From NCBI RefSeq assembly GCF_900116425.1, contig NZ_FPAS01000008.1, positions 1 through 33,713 of the forward strand: a stretch of DNA of 33,713 nucleotides. The letters are read 5' to 3'. The stretch is from Lishizhenia tianjinensis. Its GTDB lineage: Bacteria > Bacteroidota > Bacteroidia > Flavobacteriales_D > Crocinitomicaceae. This document shows positions 6,446 to 32,622 of the stretch, in pieces. Positions within the stretch are counted from its first letter, which is position 1. Each line of letters begins with the position of its first letter. Both the position numbers and the translations under genes were made by a program. The notes beneath the pieces were generated by a model that was not told where the DNA came from, ran no database searches, and saw only the letters and a list, made by a program, of their open reading frames with translations.

Positions 6446-6545
6446 CCCCCAATTAAAAGTTCGCTAAAGCTGCCTTTTAGTTGGGGTCGGGTCATCCATT
6501 CTAGTCCCGATAAAAAATCGGGAGCTGCCATTTCTACCCCTAATA
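6446..6545. repeat. REP-like palindromic intergenic element
   Basis: There are two adjacent hairpins. The first is CCCCAATTAAAAG (6447-6459) pairing with CTTTTAGTTGGGG (6474-6486): 13 bp with one G-T wobble and a 14-nt loop. The second is TCCCGAT (6505-6511) pairing with ATCGGGA (6517-6523) across five A. The intervening GGGTCGGGTCATCC and trailing GCTGCCATTTCTACCCC resemble, from memory, a dispersed intergenic repeat common in Flavobacteriia. It sits in the 218-bp gap between the divergent lipoprotein gene and the secreted protein gene at 6609. Confidence 0.6.
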
Positions 6546-6608
6546 GTTATTTACAGACTAATTCTTTTATTTTAGCGTTCAAGTTCAAACCACTTAAAAA
6601 TCACACCT

Positions 6609-28666: not shown

Positions 28667-31033
28667 ATGTCAAAGAATTTAGTAATTGTCGAGTCACCTG
28701 CAAAAGCAAAAACCATAGAAGGTTATTTGGGGAAAGATTTCACTGTAAAATCTAGTTATGGTCACGTAAGAGATCTTGCCAAAAAAGGCTTAGCAATTGA
28801 CGTCGAAAACAATTTTAAACCTGATTATTCGGTGAGTCCAGACAAGAAAGCGCTGGTTACAGAATTAAAGAAATTAGTGAAAGGTGCCGAAACGGTATGG
28901 CTCGCAACCGATGAGGACCGCGAGGGAGAAGCTATTTCTTGGCACTTGTATGAAACGCTAGGATTGGATAAAAAGGAAACGAAACGAATTACTTTTAACG
29001 AGATTACAAAAACTGCCATCTTAAAGGCGATAGAAAGTCCGAGAGAAATCAACAAAGAGTTGGTAGATGCGCAGCAAGCAAGAAGAATATTAGATAGATT
29101 AGTTGGTTTTGAACTTTCTCCTGTTTTGTGGAAAAAAGTTAAACCAAGTTTATCTGCAGGCCGTGTACAATCTGTTGCGGTTCGTTTAATTGTTGAGCGC
29201 GAAAGGGAAATACAAAACTTTACACCAGAAACTTTTTACAGACTCTCTGGTTTTTTCCAAAAAGATGCGGATACTATTAAAGCAGATTTAGCGCATAACT
29301 TAGGTACAGACAAAGAAGTTGAAGCTTTCTTGGATTCATGTAAAGCCGCCGAGTTTGAAATTACAGACGTAGTGAAAAAGCCCGGCACGAAATCTCCAAC
29401 GGCGCCGTTTACAACTTCTACCTTGCAACAAGAGGCGAGTTTGAAACTTGGTTTCTCTGTTTCAAGAACCATGTCAGTTGCACAACGTTTGTATGAAGCA
29501 GGTAAGATTACTTACATGAGAACAGACTCTGTGAACTTCTCAGACGATGCCATCAATGCAGCGGAAAAAGAAATTAAGAGTGCTTACGGTTCAGAGTATT
29601 CTAACCCAAAGCGCTACAAGAATAAAAATTCTGGAGCACAAGAAGCCCACGAAGCAATTCGTCCTACGAGTTTTGCTGCCCACAGTGTAAACATGGGGTC
29701 AGACGAAACGCGTTTATACGATTTGATTTGGAAGCGTTCAATAGCTTCTCAAATGACCAACGCAAAATTAGAGCGTACAACCATTAAAATTGGAGCCGAA
29801 GGAGTTGCAGATATTTTCCAAGCAAAAGGTGAGGTGATTAAATTCGACGGGTTCTTGAAAGTGTATTTAGAGTCTAATTTAGATGAGGACGAAGAAGACG
29901 GAACAGTTGATGGATTGTTGCCTGCAGTTAATGTTGGTGATAAAGTTAATGCCAATGTAATTACAGCAACGCAGCGTTTCACCCGTGCAGCTCCACGTTA
30001 CGTAGAAGCTTCTTTGGTGAAGAAATTAGAGGAGTTAGGTATAGGTAGACCTTCTACGTATGCACCAACGATTTCAACGATACAGAAAAGAGGTTACGTT
30101 GAGAAGATAGAACACGAAGGAAAAGAAAGAAAATATGATGTTTATACGTTAGAAGGTTCTGAACTTTCTAAAGAGTTGAAAACTGAAATTACGGGTAGGG
30201 ATAAAAATAAACTTACACCTACAGATATAGGTATAGTGGTTACCGATTTCTTGGTAGAGCATTTTGGTAGAATTTTGGACTACAACTTTACAGCAAAAGT
30301 AGAGGAGCAGTTTGATGAGATTGCCAAAGGTTTGCAAGAATGGACACAAATGATCAAGGAGTTTTACGATCCTTTCCATACCAATGTAGAAGATACTTTG
30401 GAGCACTCTGACAGAGCCTCAGGGGAGCGTCACTTAGGTGAAGATCCGAAAACAGGTGAAAAGGTAATTGTGCGTATAGGGCGTTTTGGACCTATGGTAC
30501 AAATTGGAGATACAGAAGGAGAGGAGAAACCTCGTTTTGCTTCACTTAGGGCTAATCAATCGATTACGACGATAACTTTTGAGGAGGCGATGGATCTCTT
30601 TAAATTGCCAAGAACTTTGGGGGAATACGAAGGGAAAGTTGTGAAGGCAAATGTTGGACGTTTTGGTCCTTACATCCAGCACGATGGTAAGTTCGTTTCT
30701 TTAAAAGAGGATGACCCTATGGAAGTACAACTGGATAGAGCCATAGAGTTGATTCAGTTGAAGCGTGAGGAAGATGCTAAGAAGTTGATCAAAACGTTCG
30801 AGGAGGATGAAACTATGCAGTTGTTGAATGGTAGATGGGGAGCTTACTTGAAGATAGGTAAGAACAACTTTAAATTACCAAAAGATGTTGAGCCAGAAAG
30901 TTTGACGTATGAACAATGTATAGAGATCTCTGAAAATCAACCGAAGAAAACTACGCGTAAAACAGCGGCAAAGAAAAAAGCGCCGGCGAAAAAGACAACA
31001 GCAAAAAAGAAAACTACAGCTAAGAAGAAGTAG
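28667..31033 (+). CDS. topA: DNA topoisomerase I
   Basis: This 788-residue type IA topoisomerase relaxes negative supercoils. The Toprim domain starts VIVESPAKAKTIEGYLG and carries the metal-binding DEDREGE. The catalytic Tyr is residue 283 in GKITYMRTDS, with SAGRVQSVAVRLI and EAHEAIRPT as further core motifs. Instead of zinc-finger cysteines the C-terminus has repeated topoisomerase C-terminal modules (VIVRIGRFGPMVQIGD, KANVGRFGPYIQHDG, NGRWGAYLKIGKNNFKLP). It ends in a Lys-rich tail (KKTTRKTAAKKKAPAKK and repeats), histone-H1-like. Divergent from miaB; terminated by a strong hairpin. Confidence 0.96.
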   Translation: MSKNLVIVESPAKAKTIEGYLGKDFTVKSSYGHVRDLAKKGLAIDVENNFKPDYSVSPDKKALVTELKKLVKGAETVWLATDEDREGEAISWHLYETLGLDKKETKRITFNEITKTAILKAIESPREINKELVDAQQARRILDRLVGFELSPVLWKKVKPSLSAGRVQSVAVRLIVEREREIQNFTPETFYRLSGFFQKDADTIKADLAHNLGTDKEVEAFLDSCKAAEFEITDVVKKPGTKSPTAPFTTSTLQQEASLKLGFSVSRTMSVAQRLYEAGKITYMRTDSVNFSDDAINAAEKEIKSAYGSEYSNPKRYKNKNSGAQEAHEAIRPTSFAAHSVNMGSDETRLYDLIWKRSIASQMTNAKLERTTIKIGAEGVADIFQAKGEVIKFDGFLKVYLESNLDEDEEDGTVDGLLPAVNVGDKVNANVITATQRFTRAAPRYVEASLVKKLEELGIGRPSTYAPTISTIQKRGYVEKIEHEGKERKYDVYTLEGSELSKELKTEITGRDKNKLTPTDIGIVVTDFLVEHFGRILDYNFTAKVEEQFDEIAKGLQEWTQMIKEFYDPFHTNVEDTLEHSDRASGERHLGEDPKTGEKVIVRIGRFGPMVQIGDTEGEEKPRFASLRANQSITTITFEEAMDLFKLPRTLGEYEGKVVKANVGRFGPYIQHDGKFVSLKEDDPMEVQLDRAIELIQLKREEDAKKLIKTFEEDETMQLLNGRWGAYLKIGKNNFKLPKDVEPESLTYEQCIEISENQPKKTTRKTAAKKKAPAKKTTAKKKTTAKKK

Positions 31034-31054
31034 TTAGAAAATATTTGAAGAAGT

Positions 31055-31088
31055 AAAAGTCGTACCTTATATAAGGTGCGACTTTTTT
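31055..31088 (+). terminator. Rho-independent terminator of topA
   Basis: A near-perfect 16-bp inverted repeat (31055-31070 with 31071-31086, one T-G wobble at 31063/31078) is followed by a T6 run. It begins 22 bp after the topA stop codon. Confidence 0.9.
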
Positions 31089-31122
31089 GTTTAGCTCCTT
31101 CTTCTAAGTAGAATCATCTTTA

Positions 31123-31194
31123 AATCCTTGAATCCTTGAATTCTTGAATCCTTAAATCCTTGAATTGTTGAATCTTTAAATTGTTGAATCATTA
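31123..31194. repeat. Nine-copy 8-bp tandem repeat
   Basis: Successive octamers from 31123 read AATCCTTG, AATCCTTG, AATTCTTG, AATCCTTA, AATCCTTG, AATTGTTG, AATCTTTA, AATTGTTG, AATCATTA. The consensus is AATYNTTR. No coding frame uses it. It separates the topA terminator from the structured element downstream. Confidence 0.85.
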
Positions 31195-31204
31195 AATCCA
31201 CCCT

Positions 31205-31380
31205 GTTTCATTTCCACCACGGATAGGAACGATAGCTTACCGCATCCAAGGCCTTAGCAGTTAGTGCGCTAGAGTACGACCACCGGAAGTGCTTTAGCAA
31301 AACTTAAACTGCTTGGACTTGGGAAGGTAACTAAAGTGGATAGCCGTAAATGGGGGCCAAGAAAAACACTAAAAAGAGGT
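31205..31380 (+). ncRNA. Structured intergenic element, possible non-coding RNA
   Basis: The region has no coding frame but folds strongly. An inner 10-bp stem (31268-31277 with 31289-31298) contains two G-T pairs that are compatible with RNA. An outer stem (31246-31262 with 31307-31322) has 14 pairs and small internal loops. Single-stranded flanks carry GGATAGGAACGATAGC (31221-31236) and GTGGATAGCCG (31337-31347). From memory these flanks resemble a repeated flavobacterial structured element (Flavo-1-like), unverified. G-T pairs keeping the stem suggest RNA rather than a DNA palindrome. Strand is inferred. Confidence 0.4.
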
Positions 31381-31442
31381 TACTAACATTGAACCTTTGA
31401 TTTTTACTCTGAGCACAGGGTGAAGCTTAACCTTGACTTATG

Positions 31443-31450
31443 TAGTTTTG
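31443..31450 (+). promoter_or_regulatory. -7 element before the arginase-fold gene
   Basis: TAGTTTTG matches TAnnTTTG and ends 14 bp before the ATG at 31465. No TTTG -33 is at normal spacing. It excludes the upstream in-frame GTG (31420) as start, since that codon would lie before the transcript start. Confidence 0.5.
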
Positions 31451-31464
31451 TACAAAGCACAATT

Positions 31465-32622
31465 ATGAAAGATATTTCAATTTATTTTCAAGGTATAGCC
31501 GTAGATAGATTTGTAGAAGAGGAAGCCAACCTATTAAATAATGTTGAGATACATAGTCCTGATAACTTTCCCGAATTGAAGGAAAAGGGAGTTGCTTTAA
31601 TATACTGTCCAGAATACCGCAGTGTGAGCGAAGTAATGCCGAAGGGTTCGGATGCTTTCAGAAAAGAGTTGTACAAATTGTTTCCAGCTGCCTCATGGAA
31701 TTTCAAGCTGTACGATTTGGGTAATTTATTGCCTGGTGAAAAGTATACTGATACTTTCTTTGCTTTGTCGAGTGCAGTGCAGGAATTAATTAAAAAAGAT
31801 ATCGTGCCTATTGTAGTAGGTGGTTCTCAGGATTTAACCTATGCTTTGTATAAGGCCTACGAAGAGTTGGAGCAGTTTGTGAACTTAACTACTATAGATG
31901 CAAAATTGGACCTTGGAACAGGAGAGGGTGCAATTGATAAGAATGGATGGTTGAGTCACATCGTATTACACCAGCCAAATTATCTGTTTAATTATAGTAA
32001 TCTAGGTTGTCAAGCCCATTATAATCCTACCTCAACCTTCGATCTTTTTGAACAGTTGTTTTTTGACGTGCATAGATTGGGTGTTTTGAACACAGATATC
32101 ACCTTGGCAGAACCAGTTTTAAGAAATACGGATATTTTAAGTTTGGATATAGAGGGCTTGAGAGCGAGCGAGTTAAATTCTACTTCTTATCTGCATCCTA
32201 ATGGATTTTTTGCCAATGAAATGTGTAGGTTGGCGCGTTATGCTGGGGTGTCAGACAAGTTAAGTTCTTTCGGTATTTTTAACCTCTGGGGAGGTAAGGA
32301 TAGCGGTGTGACGGATGCTTTATTGGCACAAATTATCTGGTATTTTATGGATGGTTATGCTGCACGTTTTGGAGATTTCCCTATTGGAACTACAAAAAAT
32401 TATTTGCGCTTTAAAGTTTATTTAGAAGAAATTGATACAGAAATTAATTTCCTGAAAAGTGATAAGTCGGGCAGATGGTGGATGGAAGTTCCGTATCCGC
32501 AAACAAAAGGGAATAAGTATGTTAGGCATCACATGGTGCCTTGTTCTTATCAGACTTACCAAGATGCCATGCAAAATGAGATCCCAGATTTATGGTGGTC
32601 TACCTACCAGAAGCTTTCTTGA
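31465..32622 (+). CDS. Arginase/formimidoylglutamase-fold protein, probably inactive
   Basis: This 385-residue ureohydrolase-fold protein starts at ATG 31465 (MKDISIYFQG), favoured by the -7 element just upstream. The three metal-binding motifs of the arginase family are recognisable but altered. GGxH[SD] is GGSQD at 119-123 (His to Gln), DAHxD is DAKLD at 145-149 (His to Lys), and S-x-D-x-D is SLDIE at 226-230 (last Asp to Glu). A dimanganese site is therefore unlikely and catalysis doubtful. Flavobacterial homologues are annotated formimidoylglutamase and, from memory, often lie beside type IX secretion genes, as here (PorP/SprF-like gene 180 bp downstream). A structural or regulatory role in that system is possible. 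Confidence 0.8.
   Translation: MKDISIYFQGIAVDRFVEEEANLLNNVEIHSPDNFPELKEKGVALIYCPEYRSVSEVMPKGSDAFRKELYKLFPAASWNFKLYDLGNLLPGEKYTDTFFALSSAVQELIKKDIVPIVVGGSQDLTYALYKAYEELEQFVNLTTIDAKLDLGTGEGAIDKNGWLSHIVLHQPNYLFNYSNLGCQAHYNPTSTFDLFEQLFFDVHRLGVLNTDITLAEPVLRNTDILSLDIEGLRASELNSTSYLHPNGFFANEMCRLARYAGVSDKLSSFGIFNLWGGKDSGVTDALLAQIIWYFMDGYAARFGDFPIGTTKNYLRFKVYLEEIDTEINFLKSDKSGRWWMEVPYPQTKGNKYVRHHMVPCSYQTYQDAMQNEIPDLWWSTYQKLS

Follow-up and report, generated by a model that had tools for sequence, protein, structure and literature searches.

Flavo-1 (RF01705) is filed in Rfam as an sRNA, and Table 1 of the 2010 publication rates it as probably RNA, not cis-regulatory, and occurring in Bacteroidetes (PMC2864571). 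In Flavobacterium psychrophilum, according to a 2021 transcriptome study, Flavo-1 hits coincide with several 5′ transcribed regions but lie indistinctly in sense and antisense, and many fall beyond transcribed regions; the study found no real clue to the function of the family (PMC9723704). The accessible parts of the literature searched, in which subscription journals are thinly covered, yielded no reading of Flavo-1 as mobile or single-stranded DNA. A second reference system is that of REP sequences, for which the relevant passages of PMC3733652 give a length of 20–40 nt, describe GTAG and CGTC REPs, dimers and RAYTs, and state that most REP families favour head-to-head dimers and seldom form head-to-tail ones; two Flavobacterium species appear in the part of PMC12306157 that gives REP counts.

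Here we analyse a hairpin from Lishizhenia tianjinensis that shares its base with Flavo-1. It lies in a window of 33,713 nt (contig NZ_FPAS01000008.1, positions 1–33,713 of the forward strand), and all coordinates without a contig label refer to that whole stretch.

A strand-specific hairpin downstream of topA

On the + strand, the region 31205–31380 folds as RNA at −55.9 kcal/mol (z = −3.66), a value equalled by none of 200 shuffles, compared with z = −0.74 for the − strand. Folding of 31214–31355 with DNA parameters gave z-scores of −3.07 (+) and −1.04 (−). This bears out, in strand-specific form, the stem-loop that a preliminary description of the window had proposed here, and the nested stems it listed were recovered as well: a 10-bp inner stem pairs 31268–31277 with 31289–31298, includes two G-T pairs, and with its apex occupies 31268–31298 (+) of the fold, inside nested outer stems. 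The apical motif CGACCACCGGAAG at 31277–31289 (+), recognised through counts of the pattern CGACCANNGGAAG, consists of a GA/AA internal loop, CC-GG pairs and a triloop. At the base, the 5′ side of a core, GGATAGGAACGATAG (31221–31235, +), carries the purine internal loops common to Flavo-1 and is conserved in alignment A1 (see below) and where other copies are aligned to Flavo-1; its partner on the 3′ side, CTAAAGTGGATAGCCGT (31331–31347, +), follows from the fold and from A1. Two GGATAG words, at 31221–31226 and 31338–31343, had been described as flanks of the element; both lie inside the hairpin, where they form opposite sides of purine-rich internal loops.

The region is free of genes, as had been claimed, with no ORF of ≥80 aa covering the hairpin. 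The gene topA ends at 31033, 5′ of the hairpin, and the ORF that follows has a called start at GTG 31420 and a probable start at ATG 31465. Searches of the window for tRNA and tmRNA found none, a search against Rfam at gathering scores gave no match, and at E ≤ 10 the hairpin at 31205–31367 likewise matched no Rfam model, those of Flavo-1, 6S and 6S-Flavo included.

The surroundings contain further features. Just 3′ of topA, at 31055–31086, lies a strong palindrome followed by a T run, resembling an intrinsic terminator. Directly 5′ of the hairpin, 31116–31203 is a tandem array of about 10 units of a degenerate 8-nt word (TTGAATCC-like); it has 44 further matches in the same genome, some overlapping, and some copies of the repeat described below adjoin such stretches. 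A second degenerate low-complexity word (GAGTGTGAGTAnGGAGTATTGAG-like) occurs beside several copies (at 1281–1303 of stretch L026, and flanking the L041 and L045 copies).

A large family of covarying and dispersed copies

A 22-nt apex sequence has two further occurrences in the L. tianjinensis genome, and the apex pattern CGACCANNGGAAG is found there at 27 places, compared with 2 for the same pattern read backwards. All 27 places align as one element (alignment A1), from which we built a covariance model of 163 positions, R1. Across the 3.56-Mb genome, R1 matched at least 116 places at E ≤ 1 and at least 113 at E ≤ 1e−3, both being lower bounds obtained by scoring 150 of 676 candidates; the element measures about 160 nt and is mostly intergenic. 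A second scan took in 1.19 Mb, in 60 stretches of ~20 kb placed around copies, and produced 90 matches at E ≤ 0.01. Two had not been listed before, and they brought the listed places to 118. Alignment A2 comprises 109 of these, with nine outside, and was fitted to the model, so that it leans towards it. The scan of individual stretches took 99 fetched stretches and the window, with L274 left out. Two copies, C2:1489928 and C6:290915, share 99.5% identity across 392 bases including flank and may be one locus repeated at contig ends.

By length, 101 of the 109 copies exceed 140 nt, including the full, long-armed copy of the window, and 8 are short. The full copy at 31205–31367 (+) matches the whole model (positions 1–163, 100.9 bits), being also one of the 27 sequences from which R1 was built. 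A second, short-armed copy of the same family (82 nt) lies at 6474–6555 on the − strand (49.5 bits, E = 9.9e−12); its own fold is unexceptional (z = −0.36).

Among 119 genomes including that of L. tianjinensis, at least 36 contain an R1 match at E ≤ 1e−5, with 24 candidates per genome scored. Eight relatives, chosen for having matches, hold at least 2–16 copies each at E ≤ 0.01, again lower bounds (150 candidates per genome scored); since these numbers are low, the L. tianjinensis genome shows an expansion. A DNA similarity search of 99 genomes, its own included, with 31205–31420 as query found, beyond the query itself, only matches of 22–46 nt. As to carriage by phages, a 17-nt apex is present in seven viral contigs, but R1 covers only 17–23 of its 163 positions there.

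The preliminary description had listed covariation among genome copies among the checks on its element, and its absence, along with that of a transcript, as refutation. Covariation is massive. In A1, which MAFFT aligned without structure and whose structure is the consensus that RNAalifold derived from it, changes on both sides affect 24 of 28 pairs; 86.5% of cells were paired, versus 64.0% after shuffling and at most 44.0% after sliding. The corresponding values for A2 (109 copies) were 26 of 28 pairs, and 87.7% versus 59.7% and 48.5%. The hairpin structure is under constraint, and on one strand. In 95 of 109 copies it is the forward strand that folds at the lower energy, and z < −2 is reached by 58 forward versus 40 reverse strands; among short copies, the forward strand is lower in only 2 of 8. 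The G-T pairs to which attention had been drawn are meaningful: at one near-apex pair, U-G is the most frequent combination (20 of the 27 A1 copies), and the complement would hold an A-C mismatch at that position. The hairpin strand therefore appears to act in single-stranded form, as a duplex site or a cruciform needs no U-G. Neither the strand asymmetry nor the G-T pairs distinguish RNA from single-stranded DNA.

Comparison of the most similar copies bears on how the family spreads and ages. Nine pairs of copies are ≥70% identical; in eight of them both flanks score ≤25, within the random range (random median 19, 95% at 24, maximum 40), and in the ninth (C8:454916 and C8:457415) a score of 32 is reached on the downstream side. 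Similarity ends within 25 nt of the model edges in five of six inspected pairs, and in the sixth, again C8:454916 and C8:457415, it continues for ~100 nt beyond the 3′ edge. As judged from these flanks, similar copies at unrelated sites show dispersal. Within the nine pairs, 81 stem pairs have changed on both sides versus 33 expected under independence, and 56 of them still pair. At the same time, of 260 stem pairs with a change, 141 no longer pair (116 by change on one side, 25 on both), and copies therefore decay too.

Relation to Flavo-1 and to other hairpin systems

The element and Flavo-1 share a basal stem with two purine-rich internal loops (GnA/GGA), and both occur in Bacteroidetes (for Flavo-1, Table 1 of PMC2864571). 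They differ in that the long-armed class has ~80 extra nt and a conserved apex (CGACCANNGGAAG), whereas Flavo-1 is short-armed, with a model of 76 positions; the full copy of the window is long and its second copy (82 nt) short. The window copy has no match to the Flavo-1 model at E ≤ 10, let alone at the 42-bit cut-off. In the L. tianjinensis genome the four Flavo-1 matches at E ≤ 10 all fall on R1 places and none exceeds the cut-off, the best being 37.2 bits for copy C3:30723, in which the basal core is aligned around a long insert; at E ≤ 0.1, 2 of 20 copy loci have a Flavo-1 match. We therefore reject strict membership in Flavo-1.

The eight relatives gave 58 Flavo-1 matches (E ≤ 0.1), of which 30 overlap an R1 match, in every case on the same strand; 35 Flavo-1 matches lie above the cut-off, and 19 of those overlap R1. 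Viewed from R1, the overlap involves 30 of 49 short matches and 0 of 23 long ones. From these overlaps we read Flavo-1 and the R1 elements as one putative superfamily whose members share a base and fall into two length classes. Of these, the window copy represents the long-armed one, which is new and which the Rfam Flavo-1 model does not capture. Of the earlier suggestion, Flavo-1 or an unnamed relative, the second half comes close to the results, and the first has the missing match at E ≤ 10 against it.

A likeness to 6S (RF00013) and 6S-Flavo (RF01685), whose models have 187 and 108 positions, lies in the long rod-like hairpin; the element differs in being multicopy. Neither model matched 31030–31480 at E ≤ 10 or any place in the L. 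tianjinensis genome, where the 6S-Flavo search is to be read with its silence in every control genome too. A 6S RNA was rejected for want of a covariance-model match and of a single copy. Compared with integron attC sites, the copies are dispersed in both orientations and hence form no same-orientation array.

Like REPs and REPINs, the copies are numerous dispersed intergenic hairpins with G-T pairs at unrelated sites, and four of five adjacent pairs less than 1 kb apart are inverted. The element is much longer, at ~160 nt versus the 20–40 nt given for REPs in the passages cited above (PMC3733652), and its ends are without the GTAG or CGTC tag: among 102 copies, GTAG occurs at 2 5′ ends and 6 3′ ends, CGTC at 3 and 2. 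A search of the L. tianjinensis genome for a Y1 (RAYT) transposase with PF01797 found none, in a search for which 5 of 14 controls, including E. coli, were positive. With neither a Y1 gene in the genome nor terminal tags, a RAYT-driven REP was rejected. Of 118 relatives, 35 are element-positive, 27 of them with Y1, and 83 element-negative, 46 of them with Y1; none of six Y1 loci of relatives (L282–L287) has an R1 match at E ≤ 0.1. Between close copies, 20 ORFs were listed and 10 scanned; eight have a Pfam family, none of them a mobility family. The genes concerned are ordinary and include those for valyl-tRNA synthetase, zinc dehydrogenase, dihydrouridine synthase and CHU_C proteins.

Strand skew and orientation of the copies

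Skew was measured at fourfold sites after regression on replichore and coding strand, using longest-ORF gene calls, as for the gene context; the tests of skew and orientation were exploratory and run in sequence on the same data. On the hairpin strand, G-C was +0.038±0.008 within 300 bp of a copy and +0.043±0.009 at 300–1000 bp, declining to +0.016±0.007 at 1–2 kb, +0.007±0.005 at 2–4 kb, −0.001±0.005 at 4–6 kb and −0.009±0.005 at 6–9 kb, with T-A near zero at all distances. Taken over genes within 1 kb, it amounted to +0.034 and was positive at 81 of 112 copies (p = 3e−7). Among genes within 300 bp the skew was present in all four classes, whether upstream or downstream of a copy and whether on its strand or the other, and it persisted in + and − copies, in copies agreeing and disagreeing with the replichore, and in isolated copies. 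Being found whichever way the genes point, it hints at a DNA-level, strand-specific process.

For comparison, the replichore effect was 0.041 for G-C and −0.011 for T-A, and the coding effect −0.034 and +0.048. The local skew is about as large as the replichore effect, and its signature resembles replication asymmetry, unlike that of transcription. Some residual skew is also common to neighbouring genes far from copies (r = 0.11), and across a copy the correlation is r = 0.22 (p = 0.05). The local skew could be an effect of the copies, or could precede insertion and reflect a preference for such sites.

Adjacent copies less than 11 kb apart, a limit picked after the positions had been seen, are oppositely oriented in 30 of 34 cases (0 of 5000 permutations); the fraction is 15 of 22 at 10–20 kb and 17 of 31 at 20–40 kb. 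Close pairs in the eight relatives do not repeat this pattern, with only one of five opposite. Orientation with respect to the replichore, whose sign was assigned per contig by hand from sampled skew, is weakly biased (59 vs 45, p = 0.20; 60 of 105 at 200 kb).

Gene context

The 109 copies are distributed over gaps between convergent genes (41), between divergent genes (16) and between tandem genes (23 sense, 21 antisense), with 5 lying across a called ORF and 3 without a called gene upstream. Copies ignore the direction of tandem genes. Convergent gaps are favoured: among gene pairs that hold a copy, 32 are convergent and 12 divergent, versus 122 and 125 among other gene pairs (p = 0.005), or 42 and 90 when gaps of ≥100 bp are compared (p = 3e−6).

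The gene 3′ of the window copy encodes an arginase-family protein with weak likeness to formimidoylglutamase, far under the cut-off of that model; a PorP/SprF gene comes second. Related arginase loci of relatives (best 80 of 375, 48–58% identity) gave 0 of 80 with an R1 match, a count in which five loci have fewer than 400 bases upstream and in which R1, built from the L. tianjinensis genome, may miss diverged copies.

Discussion

Taking together the covarying structure, the copy number, the dispersal, the local strand bias, the kinship with Flavo-1 and an orientation that is random with respect to tandem genes, we consider it probable, if well short of certain, that the element is a non-autonomous dispersed repeat that spreads and acts as folded single-stranded DNA, a strand-specific hairpin built on a Flavo-1 core. 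The hairpin strand would fold as single-stranded DNA, and this would be the acting and moving form; a trans-acting protein, for which the element's own genome has offered no candidate, would recognise the folded strand. By analogy with REPs and REPINs, the element may spread non-autonomously, though without a Y1/RAYT transposase, and its hairpin strand would join a polar DNA process, e.g. replication, repair or transposition. Against this reading stand the failure to find a mobiliser by the Y1 search or in the 10 ORFs scanned, the decay of copies, the weak orientation to the replichore, the opposite orientation of neighbours that did not recur in relatives, a local skew that could precede insertion, the transcribed regions at several Flavo-1 hits, and the fact that only 58 of 109 copies reach z < −2.

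The strongest competitor is a multicopy structured RNA family, with Flavo-1 as an sRNA, that is transcribed and binds a common protein, e.g. as a sponge or stability element. We regard this as rather unlikely. The strand-specific structure, the conserved U-G pair and the compensatory changes are what an RNA would display, and Rfam's filing of Flavo-1, its rating as probably RNA in Table 1 of PMC2864571 and the transcribed regions at several F. psychrophilum hits reported in the passages of PMC9723704 point the same way. The same passages, however, place those hits in sense and antisense alike (PMC9723704), and the copies studied here are randomly oriented to tandem genes. Signals of transcription are in no clear excess: TANNTTTG, present upstream of 8 of 102 copies, is slightly more frequent there than in controls (3 and 4), whereas a two-box promoter pattern (27 vs 27 and 30 in controls) and a downstream T5 run (25 vs 25) show no excess among the same 102 copies. 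For lack of any T-run excess, an intrinsic terminator was rejected too. An RNA family also leaves the skew of neighbouring genes on both sides of the copies unexplained. The structured RNA of the preliminary description holds as far as the covarying structure goes; an RNA role may exist, and within the genome the element behaves like a dispersed DNA repeat.

Less probable still, in our estimation, is a REP/BIME-like chromosomal binding site for a DNA-topology or nucleoid protein, maintained at each locus separately and working where convergent transcription units end. The preference for convergent gaps, the opposite orientation of 30 of 34 neighbours within 11 kb and the retention of pairing by diverged copies would agree with it. 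Against it, the 80 best of 375 related loci gave no match to the element, relatives hold few copies (at least 2–16 each), and the opposite orientation does not recur in them (1 of 5); duplex binding, moreover, would need no strand asymmetry.

The window copy lies upstream of the arginase-family gene and on the same strand, which would speak for a leader RNA acting in cis on that gene or on the T9SS gene. Such a leader is very improbable and was rejected, since none of the best 80 of 375 related arginase loci carries the element, the genome has at least 113 matches, with unrelated genes beside those inspected, antisense copies between tandem genes are as frequent as sense ones, and a TANNTTTG-like box at 31443–31450 is located after the element. 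The link to a T9SS gene suggested earlier is unsupported on the first three of these counts, and on PorP/SprF being the second gene rather than the next.

Returning to the single-stranded-DNA repeat, a wider generalisation is possible, though we put it forward tentatively and with more doubt than confidence: Flavo-1 and its long-armed relatives might together be, in place of RNA genes, a widespread class of single-stranded-DNA elements in Bacteroidetes chromosomes, spread by other means than RAYTs and marking a polar DNA process that leaves a strand-specific mutational footprint of ~2 kb on each side. With more than 100 copies of a long-armed relative in one genome, statistical study of the Flavo-1 family becomes feasible. 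If single-stranded DNA is the acting form, the Rfam family would be misfiled, and these elements would constitute a new class of mobile or replication-linked element.
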